A stretch of DNA of 39,942 nucleotides, taken from positions 1-39,942 of IMG/VR virus record IMGVR_UViG_3300027763_000110; one strand, 5' to 3'. Both the position numbers and the translations under genes were made by a program. Below are positions 5,175 to 25,094 of this stretch, one piece after another (positions within the stretch are counted from its first letter, which is position 1; each line of letters opens with the position of its first letter). Source of the stretch: a virus. The notes beneath the pieces were generated by a model that did not search any database, had not been told where the DNA came from, and saw nothing but the letters and a program-made list of their open reading frames with translations.

Positions 5175-5182
5175 CAAAGGTA
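5175..5182 (-). promoter_or_regulatory. Bacteroidetes -7 element TACCTTTG before tail gene
   Basis: TACCTTTG matches TAnnTTTG, the -7 consensus of Bacteroidetes sigma factor. It lies directly after a terminator, and only four bases separate it from the ATG at 5170, which would make a nearly leaderless mRNA. No good -33 TTTG is seen at the right distance, so the call is tentative. Confidence 0.4.
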
Positions 5183-5186
5183 AAAC

Positions 5187-5212
5187 AAAAAACCCGACCT
5201 TTTTAGATCGGG
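5187..5212 (-). terminator. Factor-independent terminator after the tape measure region
   Basis: A 7-bp stem, CCCGATC/GGTCGGG with one G-T pair and a 6-nt loop, is followed on the minus strand by six T. The plus strand also has five T after the stem, so it may act in both directions. It separates the tape-measure transcript from the distal-tail transcript. Confidence 0.75.
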
Positions 5213-5261
5213 CTTTTTGAACAAACGAAGAAACAAAAAATATAGGCTGAAAAACCTTTTG

Positions 5262-5278: not shown

Positions 5279-7741
5279 TTAACTACTAAACCTATTATTT
5301 AAAATTGTTGTCTCTCTTGATTTGGTTTGAATCTTTTTCGTAAAGCCTCTTTCGTCCATTGTCAAGGATGTAATTGGCAGTTTTGATAAGGTATTCTCAA
5401 TGCTAATCAACCTTTCCACTAACTGACCATTTCCAGAGTCACCACGGCTTTGGGTCATCATCTTGGAACCCATAAACCTTTCCGCTTTTATCACGTCTTT
5501 ATTCGGGATTACCTGCGATCCTTTAGGTAAGTCCACCAATGTCGCAACACCAGGTGTTTCGTACACTTGCCCAGATGTAGTGACTACCCACTCTTTACCA
5601 ATCTCACCAACGATGGCCTTACCACCTTTAAAAGGTTTACCTTTCGTTCCTTCAGCAAATTCTGGAACTGGTTGGGCGAGGATGAACCCTATCTGAGCGG
5701 CTGCGGTTGCTGCTGCGGCAATAGCCAACGGTATTGTTACAGCTGCTGCCGCATATTTAGCAACAATAGGAGCCGTGTTAAAAACCACGTTTGCAACTGC
5801 TTGTAATTGATTGGCACGAAATTGTTTTTTTTGATATTCCTTTTCCGCTTGAGCCCTTTTTTCTTCGATTTCTGTCTGTTTCTGGACATTATCACCTGCC
5901 AATCTTAACTCCTCATCATAGCCTTTCATTTTTTGCTTAAAGGCATTCTGATCGTATTGACTTTGGAGGTCAAAAAGTGCGTTAGCAGAATTTACTGCAA
6001 GATCATATGTTTGCTTTGTCAACTCTTGATCTACCTGCTTTTTTAATTGAATCCTTTTTTCCTCTTTTTTTAATTGCTCATCTCTTTGACGATCTAACTC
6101 GTCCATCATATCTTTATTATCCTTTACGGTTTTATCCATTGATTCTTTCCTGGCTTTTTCAATGTCTGCCTCCGTTGTAGTAGTAGCTTTATAGCGATCC
6201 ATTAGTGCAGCCTTTTCCAATTGCTCTAAATCTTTTGCCGCTTTTTCTCCTTGTGCTTTTGTCAAATCAATGTCTTCCTTTTTAAACTTTAAACCTTGAT
6301 TGATAAAATCTAATTGTAATTTAAGTTTTGCCTCATACAATGATTTTTCTGCGGCTAATTGGCCTTCTGGACTATCTTGCTCTAGCTTCCTTATTTCAGT
6401 AAGGATATTTAATAGTTCAAGTCTTTTAGAATATTCTTTTTGTAATTCAGCCTGTTTCTTGGCCAATGCTTTGGCTTCGGCTTCTGCCTGTGCTTTTTTC
6501 TGTTTTTCAATGTCAAGCAATTGATTAGCCGTTTGCAAAGCCCCTTCTGACCTTAGTTTTATTTGGTCTTCTGCGGCAGCCATTGAACCTGTAAGCCCTG
6601 CTAAAGTTTCGCTAAGAGATAGTATCTGTTTTTCAGCTTCTACAACCCCACCTGTTTTAACATTACCAAAAATTCCAGAACTTCCCTCCTCAACCTTTTT
6701 ACGTTGCACTGATATTGCGTCTTGTATTTCTTTGATTCGGGCTTGCCTTCTTTCAATAAACTCACTTAACTGATCATCCGTATATGTAAGAAGTTCATCC
6801 TGATACACTTTATAGGTTTCAAGTTCCCCTGCTGCAAACCTTTCACTATCCGACCTTGCTCCACCAAAAATTTTATTGATACCATCCATAAATTGGGATG
6901 TTGTATTAAGTGCTTCGGTCAGAACTGGTCCTAAAAGTGTTCCTATTTTATTAAGAAATCCATCCCAAGCATCACCTAAATTGTTTACCTTTCCTCCAAG
7001 GGTATCCGATACTGCGGCTGCTGATCCTGCGACACCTGTATAATCACCAAGCCCAACTAAATACTCACGAATTGCAGCATTATTATTTTTAACCTGGGTT
7101 TCGACACCTTTAAATGTAAATATTACTTGATCACCTGCTTTTTGAGCCCTTACTCCAAATTCTTTTAATCTTTCAAATTCACCTACCTGAGCATCTATAA
7201 TTGCCTCAGCTAATTGGTCAAATGATTTACCAGTTGAGGATGCCAAATCTCCTAACTTACGCATTTGGTCAATTGTTGGCGTAAATCCTTGATTTGCTAG
7301 CTTTACAAATGAGGCGGTTAATTCACTAACGGCGAAAGGGGTTGTTTTTGCAAACTCCTTTATGTTATCAAGTGCCATTGATGCAGCTGCACCGCTCCCC
7401 AATGTATTTTTCAATACTGCCGAAAGCTTTTGGAATTCAGCCGTTACATTAAAAACCTGTTTACCAAATGATACAACTGCTGCAATTGAAAATGCCCCGG
7501 CCAATAGTGGTCCAAGTTTAATGGCAGAGCCGCCAATGTTATTCATTCCACCTGAAACCTTATCGGTTGCTTTCTTTCCTTCCTTTCCGGTTTTTTCTAA
7601 TTCATCAGCTAATTTTTTAGCATTTGCAATTGCATCTTTTTCGGCTTGGCTTAATTTGTCAAACTCATCTTTGGCTTTTTTTACATCACCTTCCCTAATG
7701 ATGTATTCGACAACAATCTGATTGGTACTTAAAGTACTCAT
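5279..7741 (-). CDS. Tape measure protein
   Basis: This 820-residue protein has the build of a siphovirus tape measure. There is an N-terminal helical region rich in Lys and Glu, then a conserved tape-measure domain at about 95-260 ('FQKLSAVLKNTLG', 'FAKTTPFAVSELTASFVKLANQG'). A long coiled coil spans about 405-645, an Ala-rich hydrophobic segment lies near 660-695, and the Gly-rich C-terminus includes 'GEIGKEWVV'. It sets tail length and passes down the tail tube. The ATG overlaps the stop of the -1-frame tail chaperone extension (ATGA), which supports this start. A 12-bp inverted repeat ends four bases before the ATG. Confidence 0.92.
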   Translation of the reverse strand: MSTLSTNQIVVEYIIREGDVKKAKDEFDKLSQAEKDAIANAKKLADELEKTGKEGKKATDKVSGGMNNIGGSAIKLGPLLAGAFSIAAVVSFGKQVFNVTAEFQKLSAVLKNTLGSGAAASMALDNIKEFAKTTPFAVSELTASFVKLANQGFTPTIDQMRKLGDLASSTGKSFDQLAEAIIDAQVGEFERLKEFGVRAQKAGDQVIFTFKGVETQVKNNNAAIREYLVGLGDYTGVAGSAAAVSDTLGGKVNNLGDAWDGFLNKIGTLLGPVLTEALNTTSQFMDGINKIFGGARSDSERFAAGELETYKVYQDELLTYTDDQLSEFIERRQARIKEIQDAISVQRKKVEEGSSGIFGNVKTGGVVEAEKQILSLSETLAGLTGSMAAAEDQIKLRSEGALQTANQLLDIEKQKKAQAEAEAKALAKKQAELQKEYSKRLELLNILTEIRKLEQDSPEGQLAAEKSLYEAKLKLQLDFINQGLKFKKEDIDLTKAQGEKAAKDLEQLEKAALMDRYKATTTTEADIEKARKESMDKTVKDNKDMMDELDRQRDEQLKKEEKRIQLKKQVDQELTKQTYDLAVNSANALFDLQSQYDQNAFKQKMKGYDEELRLAGDNVQKQTEIEEKRAQAEKEYQKKQFRANQLQAVANVVFNTAPIVAKYAAAAVTIPLAIAAAATAAAQIGFILAQPVPEFAEGTKGKPFKGGKAIVGEIGKEWVVTTSGQVYETPGVATLVDLPKGSQVIPNKDVIKAERFMGSKMMTQSRGDSGNGQLVERLISIENTLSKLPITSLTMDERGFTKKIQTKSRETTILNNRFSS

Positions 7742-8040
7742 TTTTTCGCATTGGTTTTTTGTTCTTTAAGTGTTGCTAACCAATGCGAATACATCAGGTA
7801 GTAAGTGTAGAGTGGTTGTTCGACCAGTCGAGAAAGGTCCGTTCCCATTCCTTTTGCAAAGCTAAGATTTTCCGAGTATCTAGATTTGAATCTTCTAAGG
7901 CTAACAATGTAATATGATGCTCTAACATCTTTAAATTCATCAGAGTTTCCCCCTGTAAAAAGGTGGTCAAACTCTTCTGTAATTCTTCGCCAGTACTCAG
8001 ATATTGACTTTGCGGCAGATTCAAAAAAAAAGTAGGCACA
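7738..8040 (-). CDS. -1 frame extension of putative tail assembly chaperone (frameshift product)
   Basis: In the frame one base back from the 7794-8651 gene, codons are open from 8040 (just after a TGA at 8041-8043) to a TGA at 7738-7740. The frame has no suitable early start codon, but it joins the upstream frame at nine consecutive T (8023-8031). A -1 slip there adds 94 residues from the GAA at 8022. Segments such as 'ISEYWRRITEEFDHLF', 'FAKGMGTDLSRLVEQP' and 'TYYLMYSHWLATLKEQK' look like a real helical protein. The stop overlaps the tape-measure ATG. A frameshifted chaperone directly before the tape measure is the lambda G/GT arrangement. An indel in the T9 tract of the assembly would give the same picture. 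Confidence 0.65.
   Translation of the reverse strand, partial: CAYFFFESAAKSISEYWRRITEEFDHLFTGGNSDEFKDVRASYYIVSLRRFKSRYSENLSFAKGMGTDLSRLVEQPLYTYYLMYSHWLATLKEQKTNAKK
7745..7789 (-). repeat. 12-bp perfect inverted repeat before tape measure start
   Basis: TTCGCATTGGTT (7745-7756) and AACCAATGCGAA (7778-7789) are perfect complements around a 21-nt loop. The repeat lies inside the last codons of the -1-frame chaperone and ends three bases from the tape-measure ATG. There is no T-run, so it is not a typical terminator. An RNA hairpin controlling tape-measure translation is a possible role (inference). Confidence 0.6.
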
Positions 8041-8651
8041 TCAGCATTTTTGGCCCAATTTTCGATCTTGTTCTTATTGTAGAGGTGCTGATAATCGAAT
8101 GGATTTTCGACCTCGTCAAAGTACTTTACCGTTGCTAATTTAACCTGAATCTGAATGGATATGGCTAATTCTTTACGCTCCTTTAGTCGAGCGTTCAGGA
8201 TGCCTATCTCGATTAGTTTCTTGTTGATCTTGATCTTTTCGGATTCTAGAACCGAATCAACGGCCTTGCAATGGCTATCTAAGTAGATTGGATTGATGGC
8301 AGCATCTAACTCCCGGTAGATGTCGATGGCTGCGTGCATCCGCTCGTATGGTATGTTAATATCGTGATCAAAACAGAAGTAGTTCCTGTTTCCAGAACGA
8401 AAGGCGAACCTTATCTTATCCCAATGCTTGCGGTCTGCCGTGCCGTTGTAGGTTGGCAAATCACTTTCTACCTCGACAACTTGTCGAGTATCGCTTGCCA
8501 CATCTGCAGCACTCCAAAATTTAAGCCTATTCCAATTAATACCCATCCAATCAAATTTTCCTTCGGGCAAATATCGCATAAAAAAAACATCAAAAGGAAT
8601 ACCCAGGTATTTTGGCAGAAGATGCAAAGGGCTAAAGGTTTTGAAACCCAT
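7794..8651 (-). CDS. Probable tail assembly chaperone, 0-frame product
   Basis: The ORF gives 285 residues from the ATG at 8651, but its first 61 codons overlap the membrane-protein gene at 8468-8773 in another frame. The real start may be the GTG at 8501 or the TTG at 8459. The region from 'DRKHWDKIRFAF' and 'FCFDHDINIPYERMHAA' onward looks conserved and helical. Codons 207-210 read through a T9 tract (ACT TTT TTT TTG) where a -1 slip would switch to the overlapping frame ending at 7738. Position immediately before the tape measure supports a chaperone role. At this length it is larger than typical G proteins, so the call rests on synteny and the slip site. Confidence 0.6.
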   Translation of the reverse strand: MGFKTFSPLHLLPKYLGIPFDVFFMRYLPEGKFDWMGINWNRLKFWSAADVASDTRQVVEVESDLPTYNGTADRKHWDKIRFAFRSGNRNYFCFDHDINIPYERMHAAIDIYRELDAAINPIYLDSHCKAVDSVLESEKIKINKKLIEIGILNARLKERKELAISIQIQVKLATVKYFDEVENPFDYQHLYNKNKIENWAKNADVPTFFLNLPQSQYLSTGEELQKSLTTFLQGETLMNLKMLEHHITLLALEDSNLDTRKILALQKEWERTFLDWSNNHSTLTT

Positions 8652-8773
8652 TCAGGAAGTGCCTGAACTTTATCGTAGTACCACTTTCCAATTGGGTGGT
8701 GATCGTAGCAAAAGGAAAGGAAACAAGACACCATTGCGGCTGATATGGCCGTGAAAACCGTGAAGAAAAGCAT
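8468..8773 (-). CDS. Small membrane protein with CxxC motif
   Basis: This 101-residue protein has a hydrophobic N-terminus (about 3-23) and two further hydrophobic segments (about 47-64 and 70-88). A 'CIFCQN' motif sits at the start of the second segment. Similar small membrane proteins with Cys pairs occur in phage late operons, but I cannot assign a function. It starts just after the stop of the 39-residue gene upstream, and its 3' end overlaps the next ORF by 183 bases in another frame, which raises doubt about that neighbour's start rather than about this gene. Confidence 0.6.
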   Translation of the reverse strand: MLFFTVFTAISAAMVSCFLSFCYDHHPIGKWYYDKVQALPEWVSKPLALCIFCQNTWVFLLMFFLCDICPKENLIGWVLIGIGLNFGVLQMWQAILDKLSR

Positions 8774-10653: not shown

Positions 10654-10956
10654 TTATTCGTTCGGTGGTGTTGGGCCGGAAATGGTCACCGTTAAAGTCG
10701 ATGGTGTTTCGATCGGTTGTGCTGCCTTGCCGTAAGCCCGATCCAGAAGCAACTCAGCAGCCCTTACATCGCCTTTAATAGCCTTGTTGCGTATTGCCAT
10801 CAGGATGGCCTCGGCAGCCGTCTTGCCGTCCTTTTCGTCACCTAAAACATTGGCCAATAGTTCCCGAAGTTCAGGAATCTTTTTAGGTCGGCCCTTAGGG
10901 TTTCCCGTCTGGCCTTTTTTGAACTTTGAACTATCATTAGGAAATGGCATCTTCAA
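10654..10956 (-). CDS. Putative terminase small subunit / DNA-binding protein
   Basis: The 100-residue protein has an N-terminal 'FKKGQTGNPKGRPKK' motif (about 12-26), typical of the DUF5681-like basic segment found next to phage terminases. A helical region follows ('LRELLANVLGDEKDGKTAAEAI'), then 'GDVRAAELLLDRAYGK'. It overlaps the end of the methyltransferase gene by 20 bases and sits directly before terL, the usual place for terS. The start could also be the ATG two codons later. The terS role is inferred from location; only the DNA-binding-like motif is seen. Confidence 0.65.
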   Translation of the reverse strand: MKMPFPNDSSKFKKGQTGNPKGRPKKIPELRELLANVLGDEKDGKTAAEAILMAIRNKAIKGDVRAAELLLDRAYGKAAQPIETPSTLTVTISGPTPPNE

Positions 10957-12067
10957 CCTGTTTTATACCTGTTTTTAAATAAGCCTCTCCATTGCGTTTG
11001 ATGACCAGATTTGGGTCAAGTTTCAGCATCCTATCGACAATCACTTGACAATATTTCGGGTCAAGTTCCATACCGTAACACTTGCGGTTTAATTGGTGCG
11101 ATGCGACCATTGTTGAACCACTTCCTAGAAATAAATCTAAAACCTTTGCATTATCATTTGAAAAATGCTCAATAAATTGTGCAGGAAGTTCAATCTTTTT
11201 TTCTTGTTTATGAATAGTTTCGCCTTTATTTGAATGAATTTTACAACATTCAATTAAGGTCGTAAATCCATCATTTAAATTATTAAAAGTTGTTTTTTCT
11301 GAATTTCTAAATTCAACAACAAAATCAACTCTATTCATTGGTCTATTATTTGCAATTAAATGTGCCTGCCTAAAATCTATTGCGTACCATCTTATCATCA
11401 ATTCTCGATGCTTTGAACTTATATCAACATTCCTCTGTTCTGAATTGCAAATAAATTGATGACCATATGAAAATAAAAAAAGATTATTTGTAAAAGATAG
11501 GTCTTCTAAGTCGTATGGAGGGTCTGTAAATACAATATCCGCTTTCTGTCCATCCATCAATCGTGCAACTGCATCGCTATCTGTTGAATCCCCACAAAGC
11601 AATCGATGCTCACCAATCTCAAATAGATCACCAAGCACAATGTCAGTTTCAATTCCCCCATCAGGCACTTCAAAATCATCCTCTTCGGCTTCAGGTTCTT
11701 CCTCAAACCCCGGCACATCTAATCCCCACTTATCCAAATCAGCAGCCTCCCATTCATTTGCGAGAACATCCCATTCCCACTCACCAAAGCCGACATTATC
11801 CTTTATAATAAACTCCTTTTGCTGCTGCTCTGACCAATCAACAACTTCAATTGGCACTTCTTTCCATCCGGCTTCTTTCATTGCCTTGAGCCTCATGTTA
11901 CCCCCTAAAACAACAAAGTCCTGATTGACTACAATCGGACGAACATTTGCCATTTCGGGGAAATCTTTCAAGGACTGGACAAGCTTTGCAAACTTATCAT
12001 CTTTGATCAGCCTCGGATTATTTGGATTCGATTTTACATCTGAAATCTTTACAGATTGAATTGCCAT
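10937..12067 (-). CDS. ParB-like domain fused to DNA N6-adenine/N4-cytosine methyltransferase
   Basis: Residues 1-95 form a ParB/Srx-like domain ('LGGNMRLKAM' 54-63, 'IIKDN' 87-91). Residues 140-376 form a beta-class methyltransferase, with catalytic 'TDPPYD' (181-186) ahead of the SAM-binding 'DLFLGSGSTM' (311-320). Such fusions are common in phages and usually modify phage DNA against restriction. The target-recognition part between the two motifs is short, so the enzyme may be poorly specific or act with a partner. The gene lies upstream of the terminase pair and overlaps the next gene. The methylated base cannot be decided from sequence, though DPPY is usual for m6A. Confidence 0.88.
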   Translation of the reverse strand: MAIQSVKISDVKSNPNNPRLIKDDKFAKLVQSLKDFPEMANVRPIVVNQDFVVLGGNMRLKAMKEAGWKEVPIEVVDWSEQQQKEFIIKDNVGFGEWEWDVLANEWEAADLDKWGLDVPGFEEEPEAEEDDFEVPDGGIETDIVLGDLFEIGEHRLLCGDSTDSDAVARLMDGQKADIVFTDPPYDLEDLSFTNNLFLFSYGHQFICNSEQRNVDISSKHRELMIRWYAIDFRQAHLIANNRPMNRVDFVVEFRNSEKTTFNNLNDGFTTLIECCKIHSNKGETIHKQEKKIELPAQFIEHFSNDNAKVLDLFLGSGSTMVASHQLNRKCYGMELDPKYCQVIVDRMLKLDPNLVIKRNGEAYLKTGIKQVEDAIS

Positions 12068-19320: not shown

Positions 19321-19821
19321 CTATTTCAAAATAAACGCAATCAAAAGAACTAAAACAAAAATCCATCCCACTATGGCTAGAACCTTAGTGGAGATGATCG
19401 AATGAATCAGGTCGGTGTTGTGCGATTCAAGAATCATACAATCACCTTTTAGCTTGTTAATCACCTGCTCACTGGTTTGGTTTTGTGAAACTAGGCTTTC
19501 TATCGTTTTGCTTTTTTCGGAGACCTTACTACTTAATCCGTCAAGTAATTCGGCTCTTTCTTCGTAAAGTTTAAAGAGTTCATCCTTTGATCCACGCAGG
19601 TCAGCGTTGCAGTTTTGCAGGGTTTCAAGATCGGTCTTGTAGTACAATGTCAATGCTGCATTTTCATTTTTAAGTCTTTTTATAACTTGCTTTTGAGCTA
19701 TCCAATCATCATAATGAAGTTTTGACTTGGATTCCCAGTACTCTGCTTTCTTTCTATTGGAATCAGCTTTGTTTTTCCAGTCTTCAATGGTGTATGGTTT
19801 TTGACCTCTAATTTTTGTCAT
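19321..19821 (-). CDS. Coiled-coil protein with C-terminal membrane anchor
   Basis: The 166-residue protein is mainly coiled coil (about 10-140: 'KSKLHYDDWIAQKQVIKRLK', 'KDELFKLYEERAELLDGLSS') and ends in one hydrophobic span ('VLAIVGWIFVLVLLIAFIL', about 147-165). It would be tail-anchored with the coiled coil in the cytoplasm. Its own promoter at 19844-19875 shares an unusual leader with two other promoters. It might act on host membrane or superinfection, but nothing visible proves that. Confidence 0.6.
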   Translation of the reverse strand: MTKIRGQKPYTIEDWKNKADSNRKKAEYWESKSKLHYDDWIAQKQVIKRLKNENAALTLYYKTDLETLQNCNADLRGSKDELFKLYEERAELLDGLSSKVSEKSKTIESLVSQNQTSEQVINKLKGDCMILESHNTDLIHSIISTKVLAIVGWIFVLVLLIAFILK

Positions 19822-24387: not shown

Positions 24388-25056
24388 TTATTGAGTGTGC
24401 TTAATTAATGAAGGATTACACATTGTAATCTTTGCCTGACAAATGACATTGTTGCCTTCGAAACCGAATGACTTGACCTTATCCTGAAGCCCTGTAAGCT
24501 GCCAATCGATGCCACCTGTTTGAACGTGTGTTTGATCGTAAAAGAACTTAGCAGCGTTCTGATTGATCGCATAGGCGTGAGTTAACCACATACCGCAGCC
24601 TTTATAAAGCAAAGGGAAATCCTGATGTTCTACCCTTTGCAAGTTGTTTTTAATTGACTTTTTATTACTGATGTAGCCAAAGTTCACATAATCCCATTCA
24701 GGGAACTTAGCAAAGTTCGAAAAGACCTTTTCAGCATTTTGGCCGAATCTCGCATCGTCTTCCAAGATCAAACAGTTTTCTAAACCAGATTCCATAAAGT
24801 CAGACCAGACCTGTCGATGAGATGCAAAGCATCCTATTTCGCCTTGGCTGATTAGTTGCTTCCTGTTCTGCTTCTTGATCGAATTATCAATATGGTGACC
24901 GTATCGAGTCCCGTTGTTAGCCGGGAAGACTACAGGCCCATTCCCATTGATATCAGTCACACCACCGAACCTGTCGAACTCCTTGAAAAGGTTTGTTCGC
25001 CTGTTCGTTGATTTCGGCAGACTAATAATATAAATTTTTTGGAACGGGAAAACCAT
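24388..25056 (-). CDS. Family 25-type glycosyltransferase
   Basis: From the ATG at 25056 the protein has 222 residues. It shows the GT25 pattern: 'IYIISLPKSTNRR' (8-20), 'GEIGCFASHRQVW' (72-84) and 'LILEDDARF' (96-104), where EDD is the metal/sugar-nucleotide site. GT25 enzymes add galactose or similar sugars to lipooligosaccharide or to hydroxylysine. Within a virion block it may glycosylate a structural protein or the host surface. It has a consensus promoter of its own whose -7 box ends six bases before the ATG. A TTG start three codons upstream is unlikely. Confidence 0.85.
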   Translation of the reverse strand: MVFPFQKIYIISLPKSTNRRTNLFKEFDRFGGVTDINGNGPVVFPANNGTRYGHHIDNSIKKQNRKQLISQGEIGCFASHRQVWSDFMESGLENCLILEDDARFGQNAEKVFSNFAKFPEWDYVNFGYISNKKSIKNNLQRVEHQDFPLLYKGCGMWLTHAYAINQNAAKFFYDQTHVQTGGIDWQLTGLQDKVKSFGFEGNNVICQAKITMCNPSLIKHTQ

Positions 25057-25062
25057 CACTTG

Positions 25063-25094
25063 CAAATTTACATTTGAATATTTGAATTTTCAAA
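25063..25094 (-). promoter_or_regulatory. Consensus promoter for the GT25 gene
   Basis: TTTG (25091-25094), a 20-base spacer and TAAATTTG (25063-25070) match TTTG-N20-TAnnTTTG on the minus strand. Only six bases lie between the -7 box and the ATG, so the message should start at or very near the initiation codon. Confidence 0.65.

Follow-up and report, generated by a model that had tools for sequence, protein, structure and literature searches.

A gene lying immediately 5' of a phage tape-measure gene carries a run of nine Ts, beyond which two reading frames stay open. Does this gene yield one protein or two and, if two, how is the second frame entered? The gene was examined in the viral record IMGVR_UViG_3300027763_000110; the window is the whole stretch of DNA analyzed, 39,942 nucleotides (positions 1 to 39,942 of the record). 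Comparison with related contigs suggests that the gene probably yields two products from one start by a -1 ribosomal slip on U_UUU_UUU, and that both would act in tail assembly as chaperones.

Two reading frames after a run of nine Ts

The chaperone-like gene is on the minus strand. Its tract of nine Ts (T9), at 8023-8031, is read ACT TTT TTT TTG in the 0 frame, and the -1 frame, closed by a TGA at 8041-8043, is then open to 7738, 94 codons past the tract; in both respects the sequence agrees with the preliminary description. The start given there, at 8651, is not conserved. Relatives align instead to the ATG at 8544-8546, so the predicted shifted product is 269 aa rather than a fusion of about 304 residues. 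Residues 1-174 are common to the 250-aa (0-frame) and 269-aa (shifted) predicted products. After T9, the 0 frame runs for 76 codons, including the TTG, to the TGA at 7794-7796. The TGA of the -1 frame (7738-7740) overlaps the tape-measure ATG (7739-7741). The features are as follows.

5279..7741, minus strand: tape-measure protein, 820 aa (PHROG tail length tape measure models, E-values to 2.7e-43; Pfam TMP_3, 3e-9, under the cut-off)
7738..8022, minus strand: -1 frame extension, 94 aa plus TGA; open and conserved, with its stop overlapping the tape-measure start
7794..8546, minus strand: 0-frame gene, 250 aa; start placed by relatives and by translation, stop TGA at 7794-7796
7797..8021, minus strand: overlap, 225 nt, apparently coding in both frames as judged by changes per site at each codon position
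8023..8031, minus strand: putative T9 slip tract, read from the sequence and exact in 143 of 144 contigs; it holds U_UUU_UUU and, with G8022, also U_UUU_UUG
8468..8773, minus strand: 101-aa ORF upstream, overlapping the start of the chaperone-like gene; given for context, without a family match at a meaningful E-value

The double open frame at T9 is far from chance. When the 0-frame tail was recoded at random with synonymous codons, the -1 frame stayed open in 86 of 20,000 trials; when, in the reverse test, the -1 tail was randomized synonymously, the 0 frame stayed open in 1,234 of 20,000.

Conservation of the tract

The family was widened stepwise: viral contigs were scanned first with single proteins and afterwards with profiles, and a tape-measure scan was added. 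The relatives used were the best 80 of 188 from one scan and the best 80 of at least 132 from a later one, so more relatives exist than those counted here. Among the matches listed, 144 distinct contigs reached the tract, the window included and each contig counted once. Where a contig had a second locus (3 cases in the first set and 17 in the second), that locus was dropped before this count, and two contigs that end before the tract (L035 and L112) were excluded. Identity to the window's 0-frame protein goes down to about 40% among the relatives listed.

Exactly nine Ts were found in 143 of the 144 listed contigs and seven in one (L220), while the heptamer U_UUU_UUU is present in all 144. 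The preliminary description had set an eight- or ten-T sequence against its own reading, and neither count occurs among these contigs. The codon that carries the first T is GGT in 94 contigs, ACT in 47, GAT in 2 and AGT in 1; in the upstream coding part, GGT makes up 17% of glycine codons and ACT 30% of threonine codons. By this comparison of sequences, the tract is held while its surroundings change. The same 143 contigs with T9 have GA directly 3' of the tract, and the +1 frame thus stops at once. Runs of at least eight Ts are rarer than expected in the window (10 matches, compared to a shuffle mean of 23.7).

The single relative listed without nine Ts has, at its positions 2427-2440, GATTTTTTT followed by ATTCAA, and is read GAT TTT TTT ATT. 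Its seven Ts are exactly U_UUU_UUU, both of its frames are open, and its -1 tail is 54% identical to that of L144. Because ATTCAA is the reverse complement of the TTGAAT found there in many relatives, this site may be a small six-base inversion or an artefact.

Selection on both frames

Both frames are complete in 134 of the 144 listed contigs and open to the contig end in 9 more. The exception is L225, in which a one-base insertion about 30 bases past the tract fuses the 0 and -1 frames; it is possibly a recombinant or chimeric contig, since its parts up- and downstream resemble, by eye, different subclades. Counted from the TTG, the 0 frame is 76 codons long in 121 contigs and 67-82 codons in the other complete ones, except L225.

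Within the overlap, the second codon position of the 0 frame is the third position of the -1 frame, and the third position of the 0 frame is the first of the -1 frame. If one frame alone mattered, its third positions would change at the upstream rate. Identical sequences and loci cut by contig ends (6 such in the 34-sequence set) were dropped before changes were counted, and L220, L225 and sequences with ambiguous letters were also removed from the 75-sequence set. For the window's side of the family (34 unique sequences), changes per site at 0-frame positions 1, 2 and 3 were 1.15, 0.64 and 5.36 in the single-coding part and 1.11, 1.53 and 1.69 in the overlap. For the other large clade (75 unique sequences), the corresponding values were 3.35, 1.24 and 13.42 in the single-coding part and 2.39, 3.91 and 6.79 in the overlap. 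Throughout the 225-nt overlap, these counts indicate that both frames are under purifying selection. The earlier impression that both frames look protein-like was borne out in two clades, and conservation of the 0 frame alone, which had been named as an outcome against the shift, is not what was found.

Pairwise comparisons were made against recoding nulls. Between the window and L095, identity is 0.42 for the 0-frame tail and 0.44 for the -1 tail, where the null maxima are 0.36 and 0.35, respectively. Between the window and L099, both tails are at 0.45, with null maxima of 0.35 (0 frame) and 0.32 (-1 frame). Taken with the selection counts, these values argue that both tails are probably used as protein.

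Genomic neighborhood and host

A tape-measure homologue lies directly downstream in 75 of 83 loci, and the other 8 are too short. In 63 further contigs the tape measure follows in 54, 7 are too short, and 2 (L226 and L228) have no tblastn match. The first of these two nevertheless has a tape-measure PHROG match at 3.2e-39, and in the second a partial ORF further on resembles, by eye, a tape-measure start. With 3 duplicate contigs removed, the tape measure follows in 126 of the 128 relatives with enough sequence among the matches listed. Measured from the -1 stop, the tape-measure match starts at +0 or +10 on the window's side of the family and 77-106 nt later in the other large clade, where the -1 tail is conserved nonetheless.

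Between the -1 stop and the tape-measure start, the L113-L145 clade displays a GC hairpin with a T-run, terminator-like, and then a TAnnTTTG box. With these elements in the gap, the tape measure of that clade may be transcribed from a promoter of its own that lies beyond a terminator; in the window's clade this gap is missing. In the window, just past the tape-measure gene, a strong terminator-like hairpin at 5175-5219 is followed by TACCTTTG.

Three ORFs (the 101-aa one, a small one and one of 133 aa) and the terminase lie upstream of the chaperone-like gene. A major tail protein gene was not recognized on that side, and neither the 101-aa nor the 133-aa ORF has a family match in Pfam, PHROGs or NCBIfam. 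A small ORF with CxxC and W motifs and hydrophobic stretches precedes the chaperone-like gene in both clades (8468-8773 in the window and 2684-3073 in L145). The terminase is adjoined by a ParB-like N-terminal domain fused to an N6/N4 DNA methyltransferase (10937-12067), and elsewhere the window carries a family 25 glycosyltransferase gene (24388-25065; Pfam 1.8e-24).

The host is likely a member of the Bacteroidota, as suggested by sequence matches and a promoter-like pattern. The nearest named relatives of the tape measure are Flavobacterium phages, and the best helicase match naming a cultured host, the highest-listed such record, is Cellulophaga phi39:1. The pattern TTTG-N17-22-TAnnTTTG, which we take to be the Bacteroidota-type promoter consensus, occurs 9 times in the window where 2.27 are expected; TAnnTTTG alone is not enriched there (51 compared to 43.8 expected). 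The terminase was considered as a host clue and set aside, its best matches being phages of other phyla and uninformative on the host.

Searches for known relatives

The chaperone-like gene products have no significant match in Pfam, PHROGs or NCBIfam. No tblastn match was obtained for either frame in 50,697 phage records with queries from two clades, and two scans of genome contigs gave no cellular or prophage relatives. Relatives with both tails were thus confined to the viral contigs scanned. Because tail chaperone genes are said to share little sequence (PMC5009743), the lack of chaperone homology is weak evidence.

The predicted structure of the 0-frame protein had a mean pLDDT of 46 and was left out of the fold search. 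The -1 tail alone was predicted as all helical (pLDDT 74), and Foldseek gave no significant match for it in BFVD or the PDB. A Bacillus phage tail assembly chaperone ranked second in BFVD, but its E-value of 2.1 is at noise level and it was rejected. No description of this gene family, or of a T9 tail-chaperone site, was found in the open-licence literature.

How the second frame may be entered

The frame change is most simply read as a -1 slip of the ribosome on U_UUU_UUU. Ribosomes keeping to the 0 frame across ACT UUU UUU UUG would make the 250-aa product. The fraction slipping back by one base on the heptamer would make the 269-aa product, identical over residues 1-174 and different in its C-terminus. 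From the arrangement of the sequence we infer the slipping itself, its ribosomal nature, the ratio of the products and their role as chaperones.

That role is proposed by position and logic, as for lambda G/GT and P2 E/E+E'. By analogy, the common N-terminal part would hold the tape measure here and the shifted end would recruit the tail-tube subunits, while the unshifted product would bring its own long, conserved C-terminal segment. The likeness in position and geometry to the tail chaperone frameshift of lambda-like phages, drawn in the preliminary description, is supported by the tape-measure neighbor, the slip heptamer and the conserved open -1 frame, which together point to a putative tail assembly chaperone.

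More tentatively, and with doubt outweighing confidence, the site could be a device for exchanging C-termini instead of one that yields a short and a long form: a tape-measure-binding N-terminal part would receive either of two conserved C-termini from the same 225 bases. If this is true, each conserved C-terminus would have its own tail-assembly partner. A slip in the opposite direction would meet the third-frame UGA and leave a third form, without a tail.

Transcriptional slippage is the strongest rival to a ribosomal slip, although we consider it unlikely. RNA polymerase would stutter on T9 and produce mRNAs with ten Us, from which standard translation enters the -1 frame; mRNAs with eight Us would stop at the UGA after the tract and give a third, truncated product. 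PMC1088944 describes selection against A or T runs as visible from nine in many bacterial genomes. In the 81 records counted here, runs of ten or more As or Ts are absent where about 22 are expected, whereas runs of eight Ts are not under-represented (27 compared to 27.2 expected). The fixed count of nine with GA after it also fits a stuttering polymerase, but the heptamer together with dual coding of the next codon accounts for nine Ts as well, and eight- and ten-T variants are missing from the listed contigs. An RNA stimulator is not seen: none of the 8 sequences folded has a downstream stem-loop (z between -0.96 and +0.83). This absence would suit transcriptional slippage, yet it does not decide the mechanism, since the P2 site is also without one (PMC3091744). 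The seven-T relative works, by its sequence, without a longer run; with both of its frames open, it mildly disfavors a need for nine Ts. On this single sequence, the comparison mildly favors a ribosomal over a transcriptional slip.

Translational coupling alone, in which the -1 frame delivers ribosomes to the tape-measure start and its protein is unused, is very improbable. Coupling would account for the TGA-ATG overlap in the window and for the tape-measure match at +0 or +10 on its side of the family. However, the gap of the other large clade, with its hairpin and TAnnTTTG box, separates the two genes without loss of the -1 tail, and both frames are selected along the whole overlap.

We give still less credence to a separate protein, begun inside the 0-frame gene with no slipping. 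Such a gene would be consistent with selection on the -1 frame and, in the window's clade, with its ending at the tape-measure start, but it would leave T9 unexplained. Separate initiation is unlikely because in 75 of 84 loci the stretch from the upstream -1 stop to the tract contains no ATG, GTG or TTG; in the other 9, a TTG stands 12 codons ahead of the tract. Past the tract, the first start is most often an ATG 58 codons in (35 of 84 loci), and 18 of the 84 lack any start there.

A sequencing error, a decayed gene or a phase-variable DNA tract is scarcely credible: long homopolymers are error-prone and L225 shows a merged frame, but the same tract recurs in 143 of 144 contigs with proteins down to about 40% identity, T8 and T10 are missing from those listed and both frames are selected, so that error, as judged from the relatives, is already excluded.

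Significance

The site brings to light a family of probable tail chaperones that lacks annotation and is found in many uncultivated phages, with a host seemingly of the Bacteroidota. Of the two conserved products, standard gene calling would miss one. The site is, in addition, an unusually clean example of two selected frames overlapping at length on the same strand, the second apparently entered by slipping. A published frameshift predictor takes a short slip-to-stop distance as a feature (PMC10885494); because it relies on that distance, sites of this layout could be missed. Because the tail specific to the unshifted partner is long and conserved here, its role in lambda-like assembly can now be put to the test.

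Comparison with known systems

As at the site described here, P2 gpE/gpE+E' is encoded directly before the tape-measure gene and its shifted frame overlaps the tape-measure start (NC_001895). Its -1 shift takes place on the T-run TTTTTTG with no downstream RNA structure (PMC3091744). In contrast, E ends about 6 codons past the annotated shift site (19685, with the gene end at 19705), compared to 75 codons past the tract here, and the P2 products are 91 and 142 aa rather than 250 and 269 aa; no sequence relation was found between the two.

The lambda proteins gpG and gpGT share an N-terminus and are related by a low-level -1 shift (PMC5009743), and their gene also lies directly before the tape measure. 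The lambda slip is at GGGAAAG, however, and is followed by 5 codons of 0 frame; a long tail specific to the unshifted product is missing.

The Flavobacterium phage vB_FspM_lotta8-1 (NC_048829) has one of the nearest named tape measures, and its gp38 precedes it. This gene (L098 4212-4936; NC_048829.1) ends ATAAAAAAGATATAA, with A_AAA_AAG and a -1 frame that stays open in the direction of the tape measure. Judged by its sequence, it is an ordinary chaperone frameshift that is absent from the annotation of the record. It differs from the present gene in its A-rich slip, in a 0 frame that ends one codon later and in having no visible sequence relation.

Bacterial transcriptional slippage on A9 or T9, in IS elements and dnaX, likewise combines a nine-base run with a conserved shifted frame (PMC1088944). 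Here, by comparison, eight- and ten-base variants are not seen and the T7 relative keeps both frames.

The clearest departure is in the 0 frame, which in a typical chaperone gene ends soon after the slip. Two published sets have mean slip-to-stop distances of 26 nt and 36 nt (PMC10885494), whereas the present 0 frame continues for 225 nt past the tract, through a stretch selected in both frames. With this long 0-frame tail and no sequence relation found, the gene was not placed in the lambda or P2 chaperone families. It would operate as the known chaperone switch does, yet it is set apart from those families: the kind of mechanism is known and the layout is new.
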